DNA of 64,000 bases from Agathobacter sp. (lineage in GTDB: Bacteria; Bacillota; Clostridia; Lachnospirales; Lachnospiraceae): positions 1 through 64,000 of the forward strand of contig JAFQRZ010000024.1 of NCBI GenBank assembly GCA_017409825.1. Reading direction: 5' to 3'. This document shows positions 1-6,963 of the stretch, piece by piece. Both the position numbers and the translations under genes were made by a program. How positions within the stretch are numbered: position 1 is the stretch's first letter; the number at the start of each line of letters is the position of its first letter. The notes below the pieces were generated by a model that saw only the letters and a list, made by a program, of their open reading frames with translations, made no database searches and had not been told where the DNA came from.

Positions 1-1
1 T

Positions 2-160
2 CTTCGTCTGGTGAAAGACCCAGAAGTAGCGGACCCAATCCGCTTCCTGCGTCAGCGAGAAGTGGTACACTTCCAGAGATTTGGCGAAGGCTTAAGAATG
101 TATCAGGAGCAGTTGGATAGCAAGAACTTCTATGCATTTAACCCTTCATTTGATAAATAA
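2..160 (+). CDS. cotJC: CotJC-like spore-coat manganese catalase, 3' fragment
   Basis: Only the last 52 codons are in the window; the gene begins upstream. The translated tail contains DPEVADPIRFLRQREVVHFQ and ends FYAFNPSFDK. I recognise this as the conserved C-terminus of the CotJC / manganese-catalase family, whose members sit in the inner spore coat and are thought to dismutate peroxide at a di-manganese site. The visible E and H of REVVHF fit the family's metal-ligand helix. A strong terminator follows directly. A coat gene here and sigK at 15.2 kb suggest a spore-forming lineage. The family is fairly certain; the subfamily rests on the fragment alone. Confidence 0.8.
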   Translation, partial: LRLVKDPEVADPIRFLRQREVVHFQRFGEGLRMYQEQLDSKNFYAFNPSFDK

Positions 161-180
161 GTATAGGAATTTTTTACGGA

Positions 181-211
181 AAATCCACGGCATCTCTACC
201 GTGGATTTTTT
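181..211 (+). terminator. Rho-independent terminator after cotJC-like gene
   Basis: A perfect 10-bp stem (AAATCCACGG, 181-190, with CCGTGGATTT, 199-208) and an 8-nt loop run into a T tract 21 bp after the stop codon. Confidence 0.85.
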
Positions 212-254
212 GATGAAAAAGCAAGTTAGTATATGGTGGATAGAATATTTATGG

Positions 255-341
255 TATAATGAGCGCAAGCGAGCTTGGGAAGGCGTAGCCTTCACACAAC
301 GAGCGGCGAAATGCAACCTTAGGCTTTGCCTAAGGTATAAT
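255..341 (+). promoter_or_regulatory. Leader with serial inverted repeats and two TATAAT boxes
   Basis: The 220-bp gap before the sigma-fusion gene holds TATAAT at 255-260 and again at 336-341, neither with a convincing -35 box at 16-18 bp. Between them are three small inverted repeats: CAAGC/GCTTG (266-277), GAAGGC-GTA-GCCTTC (279-293) and a perfect 9-bp hairpin ACCTTAGGC-TTT-GCCTAAGGT (316-336) abutting the second TATAAT. They could be operators, a folded leader or part of a dispersed repeat; the sequence alone does not decide. Confidence 0.4.
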
Positions 342-379
342 AAAGACATTATAGTTGCCTTAAATGAAAGAGGAATAAA

Positions 380-2926
380 ATGGAAGACAAACAGATTATA
401 GAATTGTATTGGAATCGTTCCGAGGATTCAATAAAAGAAACCGAAGTGAAATACGGAAAGCTCTGTGCCTATATCGCATCTCATATTCTGCAAAACGAAG
501 AAGATGCGGAGTGTTGTGTTAAAGAAAGTTACGAGAGACTTTGGGAAACCATTCCACCTCGTAGACCACAGAACTTAAAGACATATTTGTGTAAAATTAC
601 AAGAGATTATGCATTACATATAAAATACAAAGATGTGAATGAGCAGGAAGAAGACTTGTTTACAGCGGAACTTATTGTACAGGATTTCCTAAAAGGCTTA
701 GAGCCACTGAATCGTAAGCTTTTTGTGGCACATTACTGGTATTTTAGTTCTGTTTCAGAGATTGCTCTGCAGTACAAGATGAGTGAACATAAGGTGGAGA
801 CGACCTTGCGTACATTACGCCAGAAACTGGATACAGAGCTGGAACAGAAGAATATCTGCTTGCAGACAGAAGAGACACTTTTGTCTGCGATGACAGAGGT
901 GGAAGATAGATATTTGGAAGAGGCAGAACCTACAATAATGATATCGCCAGAAACGATATCTCCAAAAGGACTGTCGGAAGTGAAACGAAATCAAGATACG
1001 AAGACGTTATTTGTCCAGAGGTGGAAGAAATATCAAATACCAGTAATAATAGGTGCGTTGTGCTTGGGGTTGATTTTGCTTGTACTTGTATGGCCGAAAG
1101 CTCCAGTAGAACAGAATCCGACAGAATCTCAAATGGGTGGAGCTGCCTCTGACTCAGAGAAACCAAATACAGAAGCTATAGATACAGATGGGGTTGTATT
1201 GGATGATTTGATTAGCATAGTTGGGGTTGGGACATTTCATAAAGATGACCTTGTGCAGTTGAAGGCGTTACATCCTTGGTATGAAGAAAAGGAAATCGCA
1301 GCATTGCCAGTCTATAAAAATCTTTCGGTTATCTATGATGGACAGGAAAATGTTACGGAGTACATGACGGAGGATGCACTTAATACAAGCATAACTGATA
1401 TTGCTACAAAATTGAATATGAACATAATAACCATGAAATTTGATAAGGTTCGTATTGGTGGTACAGAAAATAAATATGCAATTGTTGGTGCTCAGGTAAC
1501 GACAGACACTGGTTCGATTCAGGTTGATGCAACGGGCAAAATCACCGTAAGCTTTACAGAGGGAGTAAAACTTCCTGTGGCATACGATATGTCAGATTCT
1601 ACGACGGTTGAACATGCGAATAACAAGGTTGTCACTTATTTGATGGAAAAATATGCGGATATTATTTCGGTGCAAAATTTTGTTTCAAACTCTTATCCAA
1701 CCTATGATGAAGAAGGAAATCGCACCATGCATTTTCGAGCAATTGTGGACAGCGGTGCTATAAGTGAAGTCGAAAAAATCTTGGATTACAATTTTAATCA
1801 GATAGAATTTTATTATAATGAAGGACTTGGATTAACCGGCTTTTGTTATGGAGATATTCGTATAGCGACAGAGCTTATGGGTTATTACCCAATTATATCC
1901 TTAGAGGAAGCTAAGGTTCTCTTGCAGGAAGGAAATTTTAGAAGTGGATATTTTGGCTCTGAAGGATTGTCGTATGAAGAAGAGGATGTTTTAGCCGTAG
2001 AACTCATGTATAAAACAGATGAATGGGAAGATGTATATCAGCCATATTATTGTTTTTATATTTTATCTGCGGTAGATAATTTATATGCCAGATGCTATGT
2101 GCCAGCAGTCGAAGGTGTTAGAGTAGATGGAGTAGGGTCGGAGGTTGAGGATGTAGAATTACAAGGAGTCGAAATTATCGACTTGTCCGAATATGACAGT
2201 ATGAATAATAATGGATTCTATTTTAAAGATGGTAAGCCATATATCCTCAAAAATGGTGCAATGGTAGAAGCAACTGATTATGACGGAAGTGAAGACCCAT
2301 ACTTGGAGTATGGAGAAGTGCATGGGGAATTTACAGATAATGGAACAGAATGGTATTTGTACTATAAGGGAGAACCAATTGTAAACTTGTCTCGTTTAAA
2401 TATTCTGCAGGACGGCGATGGAAATAAGAGCTTTGATGCAAAATACATTGATGGACAGGTAGTCATATTTAGTATCCTATATCCAAATTCAGATTATGCG
2501 AAAGGTGTGGCTGAGGTTTATCTATATTCGATTGAGGACCAGTCATTAACCCAGATTATGTACTCTGTACCTATACATAGTGGTACGCAGCCGTATGGGC
2601 TAGACTTAAGAGGTGGTCGTTATTTGACCATGGGCAATGAAGCAGAAGAGGTGTTGATTGTGGATTTGCTAACGGGGGAGAGCGTCAATACAGGTATTCG
2701 TTATGAAGATGTTGATTGTATATTATCTGCAAGCGACAAGTATTATGCGTTTGCATATAAGACAGGAGAGATTGTTTTGATAGATAAGGCGAGTGGTAAG
2801 CTGTTTAAGAAAGCGAAGTACCAGCTAAGTTTTACACCAAATAATATCACCTATCAGGATGATATGCTTTATATTCCAGCAGACTATGGAACGCAGATGT
2901 TTGTAATCAAAGAGTTTGAATCGTAA
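380..2926 (+). CDS. Membrane-tethered ECF sigma factor fused to an anti-sigma-like sensor
   Basis: This 848-residue protein has three parts. Residues about 6-155 look like an ECF sigma factor: region 2 at 6-85, then region 4 with the helix-turn-helix stretch SSVSEIALQYKMSEHKVETT (123-142). Residues 165-200 are an acidic linker containing AMTEVEDRYLEEA, which resembles the start of clostridial ECF anti-sigma factors. One membrane helix (219-238) follows, and about 610 residues are predicted outside the cell. The last 280 residues repeat short strands such as GEIVLIDKASGKLF, suggesting propeller-like blades. The start has a good site (GAAAGAGGAATAAA). I infer a one-gene sigma/anti-sigma device whose DNA-binding part stays tethered until released by proteolysis or a conformational change. 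The fold and domain order are visible; activity is unproven. Confidence 0.7.
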   Translation: MEDKQIIELYWNRSEDSIKETEVKYGKLCAYIASHILQNEEDAECCVKESYERLWETIPPRRPQNLKTYLCKITRDYALHIKYKDVNEQEEDLFTAELIVQDFLKGLEPLNRKLFVAHYWYFSSVSEIALQYKMSEHKVETTLRTLRQKLDTELEQKNICLQTEETLLSAMTEVEDRYLEEAEPTIMISPETISPKGLSEVKRNQDTKTLFVQRWKKYQIPVIIGALCLGLILLVLVWPKAPVEQNPTESQMGGAASDSEKPNTEAIDTDGVVLDDLISIVGVGTFHKDDLVQLKALHPWYEEKEIAALPVYKNLSVIYDGQENVTEYMTEDALNTSITDIATKLNMNIITMKFDKVRIGGTENKYAIVGAQVTTDTGSIQVDATGKITVSFTEGVKLPVAYDMSDSTTVEHANNKVVTYLMEKYADIISVQNFVSNSYPTYDEEGNRTMHFRAIVDSGAISEVEKILDYNFNQIEFYYNEGLGLTGFCYGDIRIATELMGYYPIISLEEAKVLLQEGNFRSGYFGSEGLSYEEEDVLAVELMYKTDEWEDVYQPYYCFYILSAVDNLYARCYVPAVEGVRVDGVGSEVEDVELQGVEIIDLSEYDSMNNNGFYFKDGKPYILKNGAMVEATDYDGSEDPYLEYGEVHGEFTDNGTEWYLYYKGEPIVNLSRLNILQDGDGNKSFDAKYIDGQVVIFSILYPNSDYAKGVAEVYLYSIEDQSLTQIMYSVPIHSGTQPYGLDLRGGRYLTMGNEAEEVLIVDLLTGESVNTGIRYEDVDCILSASDKYYAFAYKTGEIVLIDKASGKLFKKAKYQLSFTPNNITYQDDMLYIPADYGTQMFVIKEFES

Positions 2927-2931
2927 GCAAG

Positions 2932-2956
2932 CGGCCACCTTCGGGTGGTCGTTTTT
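2932..2956 (+). terminator. Terminator with UUCG loop
   Basis: The stem CGGCCACC / GGTGGTCG (one G-U pair) closes a TTCG tetraloop and is followed by TTTTT, 6 bp after the fusion gene's stop. It separates the fusion gene from the next sigma operon. Confidence 0.88.
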
Positions 2957-2964
2957 CATTGCCT

Positions 2965-2994
2965 TGTCACCTGTTTTGCCTTATGATGTGTCTA
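2965..2994 (+). promoter_or_regulatory. ECF-type promoter of the sigma/anti-sigma operon
   Basis: TGTCACC (2965-2971), a 17-bp spacer and TGTCTA (2989-2994) lie just ahead of the ECF sigma gene. This layout, an -35 with AAC/CACC character and an -10 of CGTC type, is typical of promoters read by ECF sigma factors and often marks autoregulation. No good sigma-A pair fits the same stretch. Confidence 0.55.
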
Positions 2995-3016
2995 TATAGT
3001 AAAGAGGTTAGAAAAT

Positions 3017-3607
3017 ATGCTAGTTTTATATTTATCCATTATCGATGATGAAAAACACAAAAGAAAATTTGAAGAGATTTACCTGTCTTATCGAAAGCAG
3101 ATGCTTATCATGGCGAGGTCTGTGGTACACCAGGATGCCGATGCAGAAGATGTGGTGCATGAGGTGTTCTTAAATATCGCGACACGGTATATGGAAACTG
3201 TAAGTGGGATAAAAGAGGAAAAGGTCCTTCGCAATTATCTGCTGACAGCTACGAAACGCACGGCACTTAATTGGCTTCGCAAATACAAGCATATCATATA
3301 TGTGGAACCAGAAGCAGAGCTGGATTACATAGTGCCAGAGATACCAGACGATAAGTTCGTGGAGCATATCTGCGAGCGTATCGAATACGAACAGGTGATG
3401 CAAGCAATCGCGCGATTAGAAGAAAAGTATAAATGGGTCATGTATTATCACTTTGTAATGGAAATACCTATACCAAAGGTGGCAGAAATGCTACAACAAT
3501 CTGTTGCAACAACCAAGAAACAATTAGTACGCGGCAAAAAGAAGCTTCTTACATTATTAGAAATGAGAGGAGAGGAAAGCAATGTCAATGACGAGAGAGG
3601 AATTTAA
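3017..3607 (+). CDS. ECF-type RNA polymerase sigma factor
   Basis: This 196-residue protein has sigma region 2 (about 20-90, with the signature DAEDVVHEVFLNI at 42-54) and region 4 near the C-terminus (about 125-180, ending VATTKKQLVRGKKKLL). This is the two-domain build of extracytoplasmic-function sigma factors, which redirect RNA polymerase to envelope-stress promoters. An AGAGG ribosome site precedes the ATG. The 3' end overlaps the anti-sigma gene by 26 bp, so the two are translationally coupled. The ECF-like promoter upstream suggests it activates its own operon. The inducing signal cannot be read from the sequence. Confidence 0.9.
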   Translation: MLVLYLSIIDDEKHKRKFEEIYLSYRKQMLIMARSVVHQDADAEDVVHEVFLNIATRYMETVSGIKEEKVLRNYLLTATKRTALNWLRKYKHIIYVEPEAELDYIVPEIPDDKFVEHICERIEYEQVMQAIARLEEKYKWVMYYHFVMEIPIPKVAEMLQQSVATTKKQLVRGKKKLLTLLEMRGEESNVNDERGI

Positions 3608-4262
3608 ACGTGCATTTACAGAAGTCGCTTCCATGGAATTTGCAGATATACCAACGGATGAGTCAGAAATTGATTTTACTTTTTCGCAGAAATTTCTTCG
3701 AAAGATGGACAATCTTATTGCTTTGCAACAGGATGGCGTGTGGCGTTTTCTAAATATGATGCGTAGACATATTGCAGTTATCGCAATTATCATTTTGGGA
3801 GTAACGGTTTCCGCTTGTGGTATCAATCAGGTCATCACACATTTGTATGATAATGTGTATGAGGAGATGCGAGAGGAATTTTATGCAGGTGTGACTGCGA
3901 CAGAGATTTCATATATATATGAGATTTCAAAGGTGCCAGAAGGTTTTGCGTTAAAGCGTTTATCCAAGGCAGAAGGAAGTGTAATTACGGAATATCAAAA
4001 TACTGCAGGAGATGAGATTATCTTTTTACAGGACGCGACAGACGAGGTGAAAATGAATATAAAGCAAACTGGTTGGGATGATCCAATGAGAGAACAAGTG
4101 ACACGAACCAGTATGACAGTTCGCGGTATAGAGGTAGAACTTTATGAAAATAAGTATGTTACAGGTGCCATTTGGATTGAAAATGGGTATTGCATGGAGA
4201 TTCAGTATTATGGATGTGAAGGTACAGACGAAGTTATAGCTTTGGTAGAGGTTGTAAAATGA
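3582..4262 (+). CDS. Membrane anti-sigma factor, DUF4367-like
   Basis: This 226-residue protein overlaps the sigma gene. Residues 1-62 are cytoplasmic and should bind the sigma factor, 63-81 form one membrane helix, and the outside part (about 110-226) ends in a segment (NGYCMEIQYYGCEGTDEVIA) that resembles the DUF4367 domain found on clostridial anti-sigma factors. The start is well supported by GAGAGGAAAGC. Its role is inferred from gene order and topology: it would hold the preceding sigma factor at the membrane until a cell-envelope signal arrives. The DUF assignment comes from recognition, not from a search. Confidence 0.75.
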   Translation: MSMTREEFKRAFTEVASMEFADIPTDESEIDFTFSQKFLRKMDNLIALQQDGVWRFLNMMRRHIAVIAIIILGVTVSACGINQVITHLYDNVYEEMREEFYAGVTATEISYIYEISKVPEGFALKRLSKAEGSVITEYQNTAGDEIIFLQDATDEVKMNIKQTGWDDPMREQVTRTSMTVRGIEVELYENKYVTGAIWIENGYCMEIQYYGCEGTDEVIALVEVVK

Positions 4263-5047
4263 AAGGAAGTGAATTTATGTTAGGAATTAAGAAAAAAACT
4301 GTTTTGATTATTATTGTGGTTACTGTAGCGGTGTTTGCGATACTTTATGGGGGTATTTATTTTCTAACTAATGCAGGGGATAAAAATATTAGAAAGTATG
4401 ATGAAATATTGCGAGCTACATTGGATGAAAACATACATTTTATGCTAGAGGATATTGTTCCGCATCGTTCCACAGAAATAGCTCATCAAATAGAACATTA
4501 TAAATATGATCATAATAAACTTAGAATATCAAAATATCCATTAGAAGAGGAGTATAGAGAAAGTCATTGGTTTGTTTATGAAGGAAAGGACTATACATAT
4601 CGTGTTCGGGGCGAGGATATTGAAGTAAATATGAGCAATTATGTAATGCCGACAGATAAGATTCCAGATGGTATCGACGCTAGCTATTATACAATCATTG
4701 GTGCAAATGTCACATACGAAGAAACAGATTCCCACTACATATTCACGTATGATAATAAATTGAGAAAAAATATGGAAGTATGGGACGACTATTATGAAGA
4801 AGTGGTTGGTGGATATACTTCTGGTGTTTCCGTAGCATACTTAGACAAAGAATGGAATTTGGAAAAACTGGTGATTACAGAAAAGTGGAATATATTAGAT
4901 GAAAACGGAGAAGAAATAGAACGAGAGAGAACGTTTACATTGACATATTATGATACAACGGAGGAAGAGATTAAAAAGGCATTAGAAGATGAGTATGATA
5001 TGATGATGACAGAACTATATGGTCCAGAGTATGAAGAAAACAATTAA
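4259..5047 (+). CDS. Single-pass membrane protein of the ECF sigma operon, function unknown
   Basis: This 262-residue protein has an N-terminal membrane helix (about 13-36) and an outside domain rich in acidic and aromatic residues. I recognise no family. The first ATG overlaps the previous stop (ATGA). A second in-frame ATG at 4277 has the stronger Shine-Dalgarno (AAGGAAGTGA), so the protein may be 256 residues. As third gene behind an ECF sigma/anti-sigma pair it is either an accessory sensor or the regulon's first target. Confidence 0.7.
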   Translation: MKGSEFMLGIKKKTVLIIIVVTVAVFAILYGGIYFLTNAGDKNIRKYDEILRATLDENIHFMLEDIVPHRSTEIAHQIEHYKYDHNKLRISKYPLEEEYRESHWFVYEGKDYTYRVRGEDIEVNMSNYVMPTDKIPDGIDASYYTIIGANVTYEETDSHYIFTYDNKLRKNMEVWDDYYEEVVGGYTSGVSVAYLDKEWNLEKLVITEKWNILDENGEEIERERTFTLTYYDTTEEEIKKALEDEYDMMMTELYGPEYEENN

Positions 5048-5134
5048 GGTAACGTTAAGGTTTTTCTATATTAATATTAAGAATGATATGCTATACTCTA
5101 ACTAACATAAAGAATGGTAAGAGGAGGTATGCGT

Positions 5135-5353
5135 ATGAATAAAACAGTATGGAAGATAATTGCTTATATATGTATGTTTTTAGGGCTTGGCTTATTTGCT
5201 TTTGCAGTGTGGCTGGAACATGACTATGAGCTATGGATGAAAGTAAATTCGTGGATTAGCGTAGATGTTTTATTTTGGGTAGGTGCGATAATGGGGTTTG
5301 GCGGTACTGTAGCTGCGAGACGTTTGGAAAATGTATATATTGACCGCCGATGA
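5135..5353 (+). CDS. Small two-helix membrane protein
   Basis: A 72-residue protein with two membrane helices (about 7-26 and 42-60) and a basic tail (ARRLENVYIDRR). The ATG at 5135 is chosen because GAGGAGG at 5121-5127 sits 7 bp before it; an upstream in-frame ATG at 5114 lacks a site. It lies 87 bp behind the ECF operon and may have its own promoter (TATACT at 5092-5097, with no clear -35). Function unknown. Confidence 0.6.
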   Translation: MNKTVWKIIAYICMFLGLGLFAFAVWLEHDYELWMKVNSWISVDVLFWVGAIMGFGGTVAARRLENVYIDRR

Positions 5354-5371
5354 AATTATACGATTATAACA

Positions 5372-5400
5372 TTGCCTAATTGAAAATTTTGTTATATAAT
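5372..5400 (+). promoter_or_regulatory. Sigma-A promoter of gltX
   Basis: TTGCCT (5372-5377), a 17-bp spacer and a perfect TATAAT (5395-5400). The predicted start near 5407 gives a leader of about 100 nt. Confidence 0.65.
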
Positions 5401-5401
5401 G

Positions 5402-5435
5402 TGGGTTGCGACTTGCAGATGCGAGTTGCAACCCA
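5402..5435 (+). promoter_or_regulatory. Hairpin at the 5' end of the gltX leader
   Basis: GGGTTGCGACTT (5403-5414) pairs with GAGTTGCAACCC (5423-5434) through 12 bp including two G-U pairs, flanked by a T-A pair. It begins at the predicted transcript start and has no long T tract after it, so it looks like a 5'-protective or regulatory hairpin more than a terminator. Confidence 0.5.
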
Positions 5436-5508
5436 TTTATGATATAAGTAAGTGTATATGGTACACAGACTATAGAAATAATCCGAAAACACAAGAGGAG
5501 AGAAGATT

Positions 5509-6963
5509 ATGAGCAAAGTTAGAACAAGATTTGCACCAAGTCCAACAGGTAGAATGCACGTAGGTAACTTACGTTCTGCATTGTACGAATTTTTAATTGC
5601 AAAACATGCAGGTGGAGAATTTATGCTCCGTATTGAAGATACAGACCAGGAACGTTATGTAGAAGGTGCAGTAGAGATTATCTACAGAACCATGGAAAAG
5701 ACAGGACTTATCCATGATGAAGGTCCAGACAAGGATGGCGGTTTCGGTCCTTATGTACAGAGTGAACGTATGGCGACTGGTATCTATATGAAATACGCAC
5801 AGGAATTGGTAGAAAAAGGCGAAGCATATTATTGTTTCTGTGACAAGGAACGTCTTGCTACTTTGAAATCTGAAGTCGTAGAAGGCAAAGAAATCACCGT
5901 TTATGATAAGCACTGTGCATCTTTATCCAAAGAAGAAGTAGAAGCAAACCTTGCAGCAGGCAAGCCATTCGTTATCCGTCAGAACATTCCAAACGAAGGT
6001 ACAACAACCTTCCATGATGAGCTTTACGGAGATATTACAGTAGAAAATGCAGAACTTGACGATATGATTCTCATCAAATCCGATGGATATCCTACTTACA
6101 ACTTCGCAAACGTAGTAGATGACCACACCATGAATATCACACACGTCGTTCGTGGTAATGAATATCTTTCATCATCACCAAAATATCAGAGACTTTATGA
6201 TGCATTTGGCTGGGAATCACCAACCTACATTCATTTGCCTTTGATTACTGATGAAAACCACAAGAAATTGTCAAAGAGAAGCGGACATTCTTCATTCGAA
6301 GATTTAATTGAACAGGGATTTTTGACAGAAGCAATCGTAAACTACATTGCTTTGCTTGGCTGGAGCCCAGAAGATAACCGCGAAATCTTTACCTTAGACG
6401 AACTTATTCGTGATTTTGATTATACGAGAATCAGCAAATCACCAGCCGTATTCGACTATGTAAAACTCAAATGGATGAATGGCGAATACATCAAGGCTAT
6501 GGATTTCGATGCATTCTATGAAATGGCTGAGCCATACATCAAAGAAGTCATCAGCAAAGATCTTGACCTTAAGAAAATCGCGGCTATGGTGAAAACTCGT
6601 ATTGAAGTGTTCCCAGATATCAAAGAACATATCGACTTCTTTGAAAGCTTGCCAGAATACGATACTGCGATGTATACACACAAGAAGATGAAGACCAATG
6701 AAGAAACATCTTTGGAAGTGCTTACCGAAATCCTTCCTGTATTGGAAGCGCAGGAAGATTATTCAAACGATGCACTTTATGCAACACTCTGCAAGTATGT
6801 AGAAGAAAAAGGCGTAAAGAATGGTTATGTAATGTGGCCTATCCGTACTGCTGTTTCAGGTAAACAGATGACACCAGGTGGTGCAACAGAGCTTATGGAA
6901 CTTCTTGGCAAAGAAGAGTCTATTGCTCGTATTAAAAAAGGTATCGAAATGTTATCCAAATAA
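5509..6963 (+). CDS. gltX: Glutamyl-tRNA synthetase
   Basis: This 484-residue class I synthetase charges tRNA-Glu in the cytoplasm (and, in many Firmicutes, tRNA-Gln for later amidation). The HIGH-type motif is in [13 protein letters not shown] (10-22) and the KMSKS-type loop is KKLSKRSG (252-259). Cysteines C109, C111 and C136 with H135 fit the zinc-binding insert of the family. Length is normal. The start has GAGGAGAGAAG upstream. It has its own promoter, leader hairpin and terminator, so it is a single-gene unit. Whether it is discriminating cannot be told from these motifs. Confidence 0.97.

Follow-up and report, generated by a model that had tools for sequence, protein, structure and literature searches.

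The window, that is, the whole stretch of 64,000 nucleotides from Agathobacter sp. analysed here, carries near its beginning a single open frame of 848 codons (380–2926, +), ahead of whose ATG a ribosome-binding site, AAAGAGG, was recognized by eye at 367–373 (Shine-Dalgarno (SD) energy of −8.5 kcal/mol). A preliminary description of this DNA had read the product as a sigma factor and an anti-sigma-like sensor in one membrane protein, and this reading stands: the frame encodes one 848-residue chain, and a sister species carries the same fusion. The features of the locus are the following.

180–209, no strand: inverted repeat with 11-nt perfect arms after the preceding gene, judged terminator-like by eye
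252–342, +: dispersed structured element resembling a promoter and leader (covariance model R1, covariation)
252–260, +: extended −10-like head of the element, TGGTATAAT, read from the sequence
380–2926, +: fused sigma-like/anti-sigma/sensor membrane protein, 848 residues; same in-frame fusion in the sister species
380–631, +: sigma2-like domain, residues 1–84; Pfam r2 below cut-off, predicted fold matching region 2 of E. coli sigmaE
632–664, +: shortened sigma2–sigma4 link, about residues 85–95, from the R75–F103 spacing against 75 relatives
665–853, +: sigma4-like domain, residues 96–158; Pfam r4_2 below cut-off, fold match to sigmaE region 4
860–934, +: anti-sigma segment, residues 161–185; score within the range of 56 separate anti-sigmas, predicted helices
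1034–1093, +: single membrane helix, residues 219–238; hydropathy maximum of the whole chain
1199–2125, +: extracytoplasmic sensor domain 1, residues 274–582; homologues in the outside parts of 7 separate anti-sigmas
2126–2923, +: extra C-terminal outside region, residues 583–848; no alignment with those 7 anti-sigmas

Both sigma regions are matched by Pfam (region 2 at residues 25–78, E 1.7e-4, 21.8 bits; region 4 at residues 99–150, E 4.8e-4, 20.2 bits), yet neither match reaches its curated cut-off (24 and 25.7, respectively), and the NCBIfam sigma70-ECF model likewise stays below its own on the fused protein (E 1.3e-9, 37.9 bits vs. 42.9). By the letter, the profile check that had been proposed for an N-terminal ECF sigma factor therefore falls short, while the proposed structure prediction supports a sigma origin. 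Residues 1–160 were predicted with a pLDDT of 80–96 per ten-residue block, except for 68 at residues 81–90, and the top fold matches of the sigma half were ECF sigmas, several of them complexed with their anti-sigmas. The predicted sigma2-like domain aligned with region 2 of E. coli sigmaE over 89 residues at 3.3 Å and the sigma4-like domain with region 4 over 71 residues at 2.3 Å; as regards ECF membership, both folds are present in the predicted structure.

The anti-sigma start motif had been placed at residue 170. The motif is present, but the segment begins near residue 161, where the codon is ATG in the sister and TTG in the window, and helices are predicted at residues 164–173 and 176–181. 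The membrane helix at 219–238 proved to be the strongest hydrophobic stretch of the chain, as described, and about 600 residues would lie outside. Among the loci examined, 7 separate anti-sigmas have an outside domain homologous to sensor domain 1 (E 3.4e-26 to 4.9e-17), and each of them has a sigma gene of its own, so that both halves of the fused protein have ordinary relatives. A sequence-only search for relatives of the sensor among solved structures found none at E ≤ 1, and Pfam searches with 8 members of the sensor family reached a best E of 0.0029, in a single member. The window sensor has one Pfam match, below its cut-off, and the outside part has none above. IutY-type hybrids have a FecR-type outside domain; no Pfam match to such a domain was found in the fused protein (E ≤ 1) or in the 8 sensor-family members (E ≤ 0.1), nor any to a receiver domain in the fused protein (E ≤ 1). 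The classical arrangement is found in the next operon, as had been noted, with a separate sigma gene (3017–3607, where sigma regions 2 and 4 both exceed their Pfam cut-offs) and, after it, a DUF4367 gene of its own (3582–4262).

At another locus (L035:1924–3342 on the minus strand, the same as G000:C8:136423–137841), an anti-sigma of the same family carries a serpin as its outside domain (Pfam PF00079, 217 bits, residues 117–471); further loci of this serpin-type anti-sigma are on G007:C72 and G066:C5. Serpin-matching places number 19, in 18 of the 62 genus genomes, and by comparison of coordinates 12 of the 19 lie within about 1.5 kb of a same-family sigma match. This suggests serpin-based protease sensing tied to ECF switches; a literature search joining serpin, anti-sigma factor and Lachnospiraceae returned nothing.

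The sigma–anti-sigma junction in two species

Since the gene starts 380 bases from the contig end in a 36-contig assembly, an assembly or frame artefact of a draft genome had to be considered. It is refuted for practical purposes by the sister Agathobacter species (G007), in whose separately assembled genome the same in-frame fusion, short link and lost SD recur at the same locus. There, too, sigma4 and the anti-sigma segment are read in one frame. The sister locus is flanked, like that of the window, by a gene ending in ...NFYAFNPSFDK and by gltX. The interval between these flanks differs by species, with two extra upstream genes in the sister and the second sigma operon downstream in the window (3017–5047), which has no match on the sister contig that carries the fused gene. 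At this locus the sister also has genes, absent from the window, for a matrixin-like metalloprotease (L054:2581–3105; PF00413, 30 bits, cut-off 24) and a probable lipoprotein (3108–3692).

The old anti-sigma start has an SD energy of −3.3 kcal/mol in window and sister alike. Its counterpart in the ordinary relatives has a median of −12.7 kcal/mol (67 of 75 with a start found); 400 control positions within the gene gave a median of −3.9 kcal/mol, with 5% at −9.5. Because the value resembles that of gene-internal positions, the anti-sigma part could hardly be made alone in either species; by this measure its own ribosome-binding site is gone in both. The stop of the sigma gene overlaps the anti-sigma start by 4 bases (ATGA) in 55 of these 67 relatives. 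Judged from the two genomes, the single-chain sigma, anti-sigma and sensor protein is real and was fused before the two species parted.

Among the 62 genomes of the genus, 31 of which have a full-protein match, the fusion was found only in the window and its sister. Among the matches listed, no further one spanned the junction in the family (397 genomes, 148 matching at E ≤ 1e-10) or the order (392 genomes, 97 matching at E ≤ 1e-6), and a scan of genome contigs with two peptide patterns only returned just the sister; the two loci from a scan of viral contigs served solely as alignment rows. Fifteen long-frame loci from the genus and family surveys were inspected as candidate fusions and none was comparable, the sigma frame closing at its own stop in 13. 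The other sigma frames listed end at 68–240 residues, including one of 155 residues that is a piece of the sister's fused gene. The 75 ordinary sigmas used for comparison were chosen for ending near their sigma domain, and their separateness is therefore not counted as a finding. The remaining two of the fifteen loci, from other genera, hold sigma genes of the same family that look broken: L087 (G283:C63) by a frame change in region 4, and L091 (G406:C11) by an insertion that by eye resembles a recombinase.

State of the sigma half and of the sister gene

The distance between the anchors R75 and F103 is 27 residues in the window and in the sister, compared with 49–53 in the 75 relatives and 44 in M. 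tuberculosis SigL, i.e. 17 more than in the fused protein (a hand count on the alignment). The deleted link, which in sigma factors presumably runs through the RNA exit channel, took out a K, an R and an E conserved in 70, 75 and 75 of the 75 relatives. At positions conserved to at least 90%, the fused sigma has lost 9 of 34 (ordinary median 1, most 5), and at those conserved to at least 95%, 6 of 21 (ordinary most 2); its profile score of 173.0 bits lies below that of every relative when these are scored leave-one-out (minimum 196.6, median 254.8). Among the lost marks are E45 (75/75 relatives), N48 and D49 (72/75 each; K and E in the fused protein), R118 (70/75) and R145 (68/75). We take N48 and D49 to correspond to residues that contact the polymerase clamp, and R145 to lie in the −35 recognition helix, where R144 could stand in for it. 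W55, P59, P63, R75, F115, Y119, L143 and R147 are still present. Part of this erosion predates the species split, since on our reading of the alignments K48 is present, and R145 missing, in the sister as well.

With a score of 33.7, the anti-sigma segment stands at the 23rd percentile of 56 ordinary ones (median 39.8), a subset of the 75 pre-filtered with a loose motif. On these scores the anti-sigma segment is ordinary and the sigma half abnormal. The fused sigma sits on a tree branch of 1.36 (median 0.29; another row has 1.44), and being joined there with another long branch it is not placed by the tree. Its descent is that of an ECF sigma, but it failed the tests of an ordinary member, and we do not file the protein as a working ECF sigma. 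The preliminary description had held that the sigma part could act only where it is anchored or after being cut free; with the link and several conserved residues lost, ordinary sigma activity is doubtful.

The sister copy contains 5 in-frame stops within, and 4 frame changes between, its five aligned pieces, and on this evidence is a dead gene. Over the whole gene (618 of 848 codons), sister and window differ by a dN of 0.48 and a dS of 1.39, a ratio of 0.34–0.35, as against 0.03 for the flanking gltX and 0.05 for a UvrD-like gene. The ratio is 0.21 (0.09–0.36; 18 of 300 resamples dropped as saturated) for the sigma part, 0.32 with a loose range of 0.10–0.91 for the anti-sigma segment and 0.49 (0.35–0.68) for sensor domain 1; residues 583–848 are saturated and yield no estimate. 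With dS close to saturation and a dead gene in the sister, these ratios mix selection with decay. In three ordinary pairs the sigma ratios were 0.17, 0.05 and 0.05 and those of the anti-sigma 0.21, 0.21 and 0.11; the sigma is the more constrained half in all three as well, and both halves of each pair lie below the matching fused halves, the sigma of the first pair only slightly (0.17 vs. 0.21). The fused sigma is 58% identical to that of the sister, compared with 80, 91 and 95% in the three pairs. In simulation, the chance that an 848-codon frame is still open once 0.05 neutral changes per site have accumulated was 0.0025, and at 0.1 changes per site it was open in 0 of 400 runs, from which we conclude that the window frame was probably maintained by selection until recently.

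The upstream inverted repeats

Inverted repeats do lie upstream of the gene, at 180–209, 276–296 and 316–336, but they are less particular to it than the preliminary description implied: the last two belong to a dispersed element of 91 bases (252–342) made of these two hairpins and an outer stem. The first was not listed by the terminator scan. The window copy, one of the 12 used to build model R1, scores 108.9 bits on it. With this 12-copy model the element was found at 75 places in 24 of the 62 genus genomes (E ≤ 0.001) and in 34 of 299 family genomes (E ≤ 1e-5), with 0 matches in the sister genome; a further locus is G000:C8:74316–74406. Rfam gave no hit at gathering over 1–6000 and three hits, all far below gathering, over 200–400.

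Across the alignment from which the structure itself was derived, 92.9% of cells are paired (83.3 in shuffles) and 31 are changed on both sides (9.8 in shuffles). None of 500 shuffles was as high on four of the five covariation measures; the fifth, further pair types, gave no signal (21 vs. 21.3). A same-strand gene follows in 11 of the 12 model-building copies, the twelfth having no called frame. Of the copies at 29 of the 75 places, some of them near-identical orthologues, 25 had a downstream frame that could be called, and 24 of these frames share the direction of the element; of the four copies that had none, one is overlapped by a 595-residue frame on the opposite strand.

Most of the element copies listed have a head similar to TGGTATAAT. 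The plain two-hexamer promoter scan found 9 sites, vs. 10.0 in shuffles, and did not list the extended −10 at 252–260. A two-block ECF promoter motif trained on the 75 upstream regions is weak, since only 32 of the 75 exceed the 95% shuffle level; the best match of the fused gene scores 13.9 (P 0.009) and falls inside the dispersed element, and that of the sister 7.8 (P 0.29). The element looks like a mobile promoter plus structured leader, and the fused gene probably has a housekeeping-type promoter supplied by it.

Possible roles of the fused protein

We propose, at a probability of roughly 45%, that the sigma-like module is tethered and has ceased to function as a sigma factor of the ordinary kind, and we lean to this reading because the anti-sigma segment has stayed ordinary while the sigma half eroded. 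An ordinary ECF sigma gene and its membrane anti-sigma gene became one frame in a common ancestor of the two Agathobacter species, with loss of the separating stop and of the anti-sigma's own ribosome-binding site, both seen as lost in the sequences. The product would be a cytoplasmic sigma-like module followed by the anti-sigma segment, the membrane helix and the outside sensor. Its sigma module retains two predicted folds, and the alignments show most of the link between them and several near-universal residues to be lost. This module may stay bound to its own anti-sigma segment and would not select promoters; any output would be unconventional, for example a swapping of anti-sigma partners with same-family pairs in the cell. 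Possible partners for the tethered domain are the six further same-family sigma genes, plus one weaker match, in the same genome. Against a tethered module stand several sigma marks that, by alignment, are still there, and a working sigma would likewise account for the constraint on this half. Nor need the lost link abolish function, as excerpts of PMC8103513 describe sigma2 and sigma4 working as two separate proteins in SigO–RsoA.

A working but altered sigma with a small regulon, set free when an outside signal leads to cleavage by a site-2 protease near the membrane as in IutY, is the main rival and strikes us as less likely. The layout would be that of IutY, in which Prc and RseP release the sigma domain according to excerpts of PMC5411451, the genome holds one M50 site-2 protease match (216 bits), and the sigma half is under more constraint than sensor domain 1; however, the anchor spacing is at least 22 residues below that of any of the 75 relatives and 17 below that of SigL, near-invariant sigma residues are lost, and the best match to the upstream motif falls inside the dispersed element. 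Alternatively, the system may have been crippled by the fusion, with the sister having lost it already and the window copy still at an earlier stage of the same decay. The stops and frame changes of the sister copy, the long branch and the low sigma identity between the species speak for such a relic, which we nonetheless hold to be unlikely given the fully open window frame, a sigma dN/dS well below 1, and a start codon, SD and promoter-like element all in place.

Although the device had been called little described, this holds only in part, for fused forms are described in excerpts of two reports, for IutY (PMC5411451) and for members of ECF36, ECF48, ECF52 and ECF53 (PMC8999054), and the present protein is on that account a variant, not a first. 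In IutY of Pseudomonas putida (ECF243), too, a single chain carries a cytoplasmic sigma, one membrane segment and an outside anti-sigma part, if the topology predicted here holds. IutY differs in its partner, a TonB-dependent receptor, in its Gram-negative host and in its demonstrated activation by cleavage; the fused protein, for its part, has a shortened link, lost residues, an outside part without a Pfam match above cut-off, and a cytoplasmic anti-sigma segment between sigma and membrane. In ECF48, ECF52 (SCO4117) and ECF53 of Actinobacteria, and in some ECF36, a sigma is likewise fused to membrane anti-sigma-like parts, but the excerpted text gives the first three one to two membrane helices together with a zinc-finger domain, and some ECF36 an N-terminal extension of three to four helices and a DUF2275 (PMC8999054). 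The fused protein has no Pfam match to zinc-finger or DUF2275 domains. With the separate ECF sigma/anti-sigma pairs of Agathobacter and related genera it shares the sigma family, the anti-sigma start motif and the sensor family; those pairs differ in having two genes, mostly with the 4-base ATGA overlap, a normal link length and a strong anti-sigma SD.

An eroded sigma half beside an ordinary anti-sigma segment would fit the PhyR type if the lost residues are indeed RNA polymerase and promoter contacts and the anti-sigma is still bound. PhyR of Alphaproteobacteria, as excerpted in PMC8103513, has an ECF fold with apparently degenerate contacts to RNA polymerase and promoter and binds an anti-sigma, as the fused protein would also do, and illustrates that the fold can lose these contacts and serve to titrate an anti-sigma. 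Unlike PhyR, which is a response regulator, the fused protein has no receiver match, and its sigma-like module shares one chain with an anti-sigma segment and a membrane sensor. By analogy, the former sigma might act as a membrane sigma mimic, held by its own anti-sigma segment until the sensor fires, when the mimic would draw other same-family anti-sigmas or yield its own segment to their sigmas; we offer this as a speculative and quite improbable elaboration. If true, one sensor would control a whole family of ECF switches while initiating no transcription of its own, as a membrane counterpart of PhyR born from a fused ordinary sigma/anti-sigma operon.

How a single-chain sigma/anti-sigma protein arises can be traced here through the loss of a stop, of an internal ribosome-binding site and of a link, after which the gene is open in one species and dead in its sister. 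The locus makes testable whether such a protein became a cleavage-activated switch, as in IutY, or a sigma turning into a non-transcribing regulator, as in PhyR.
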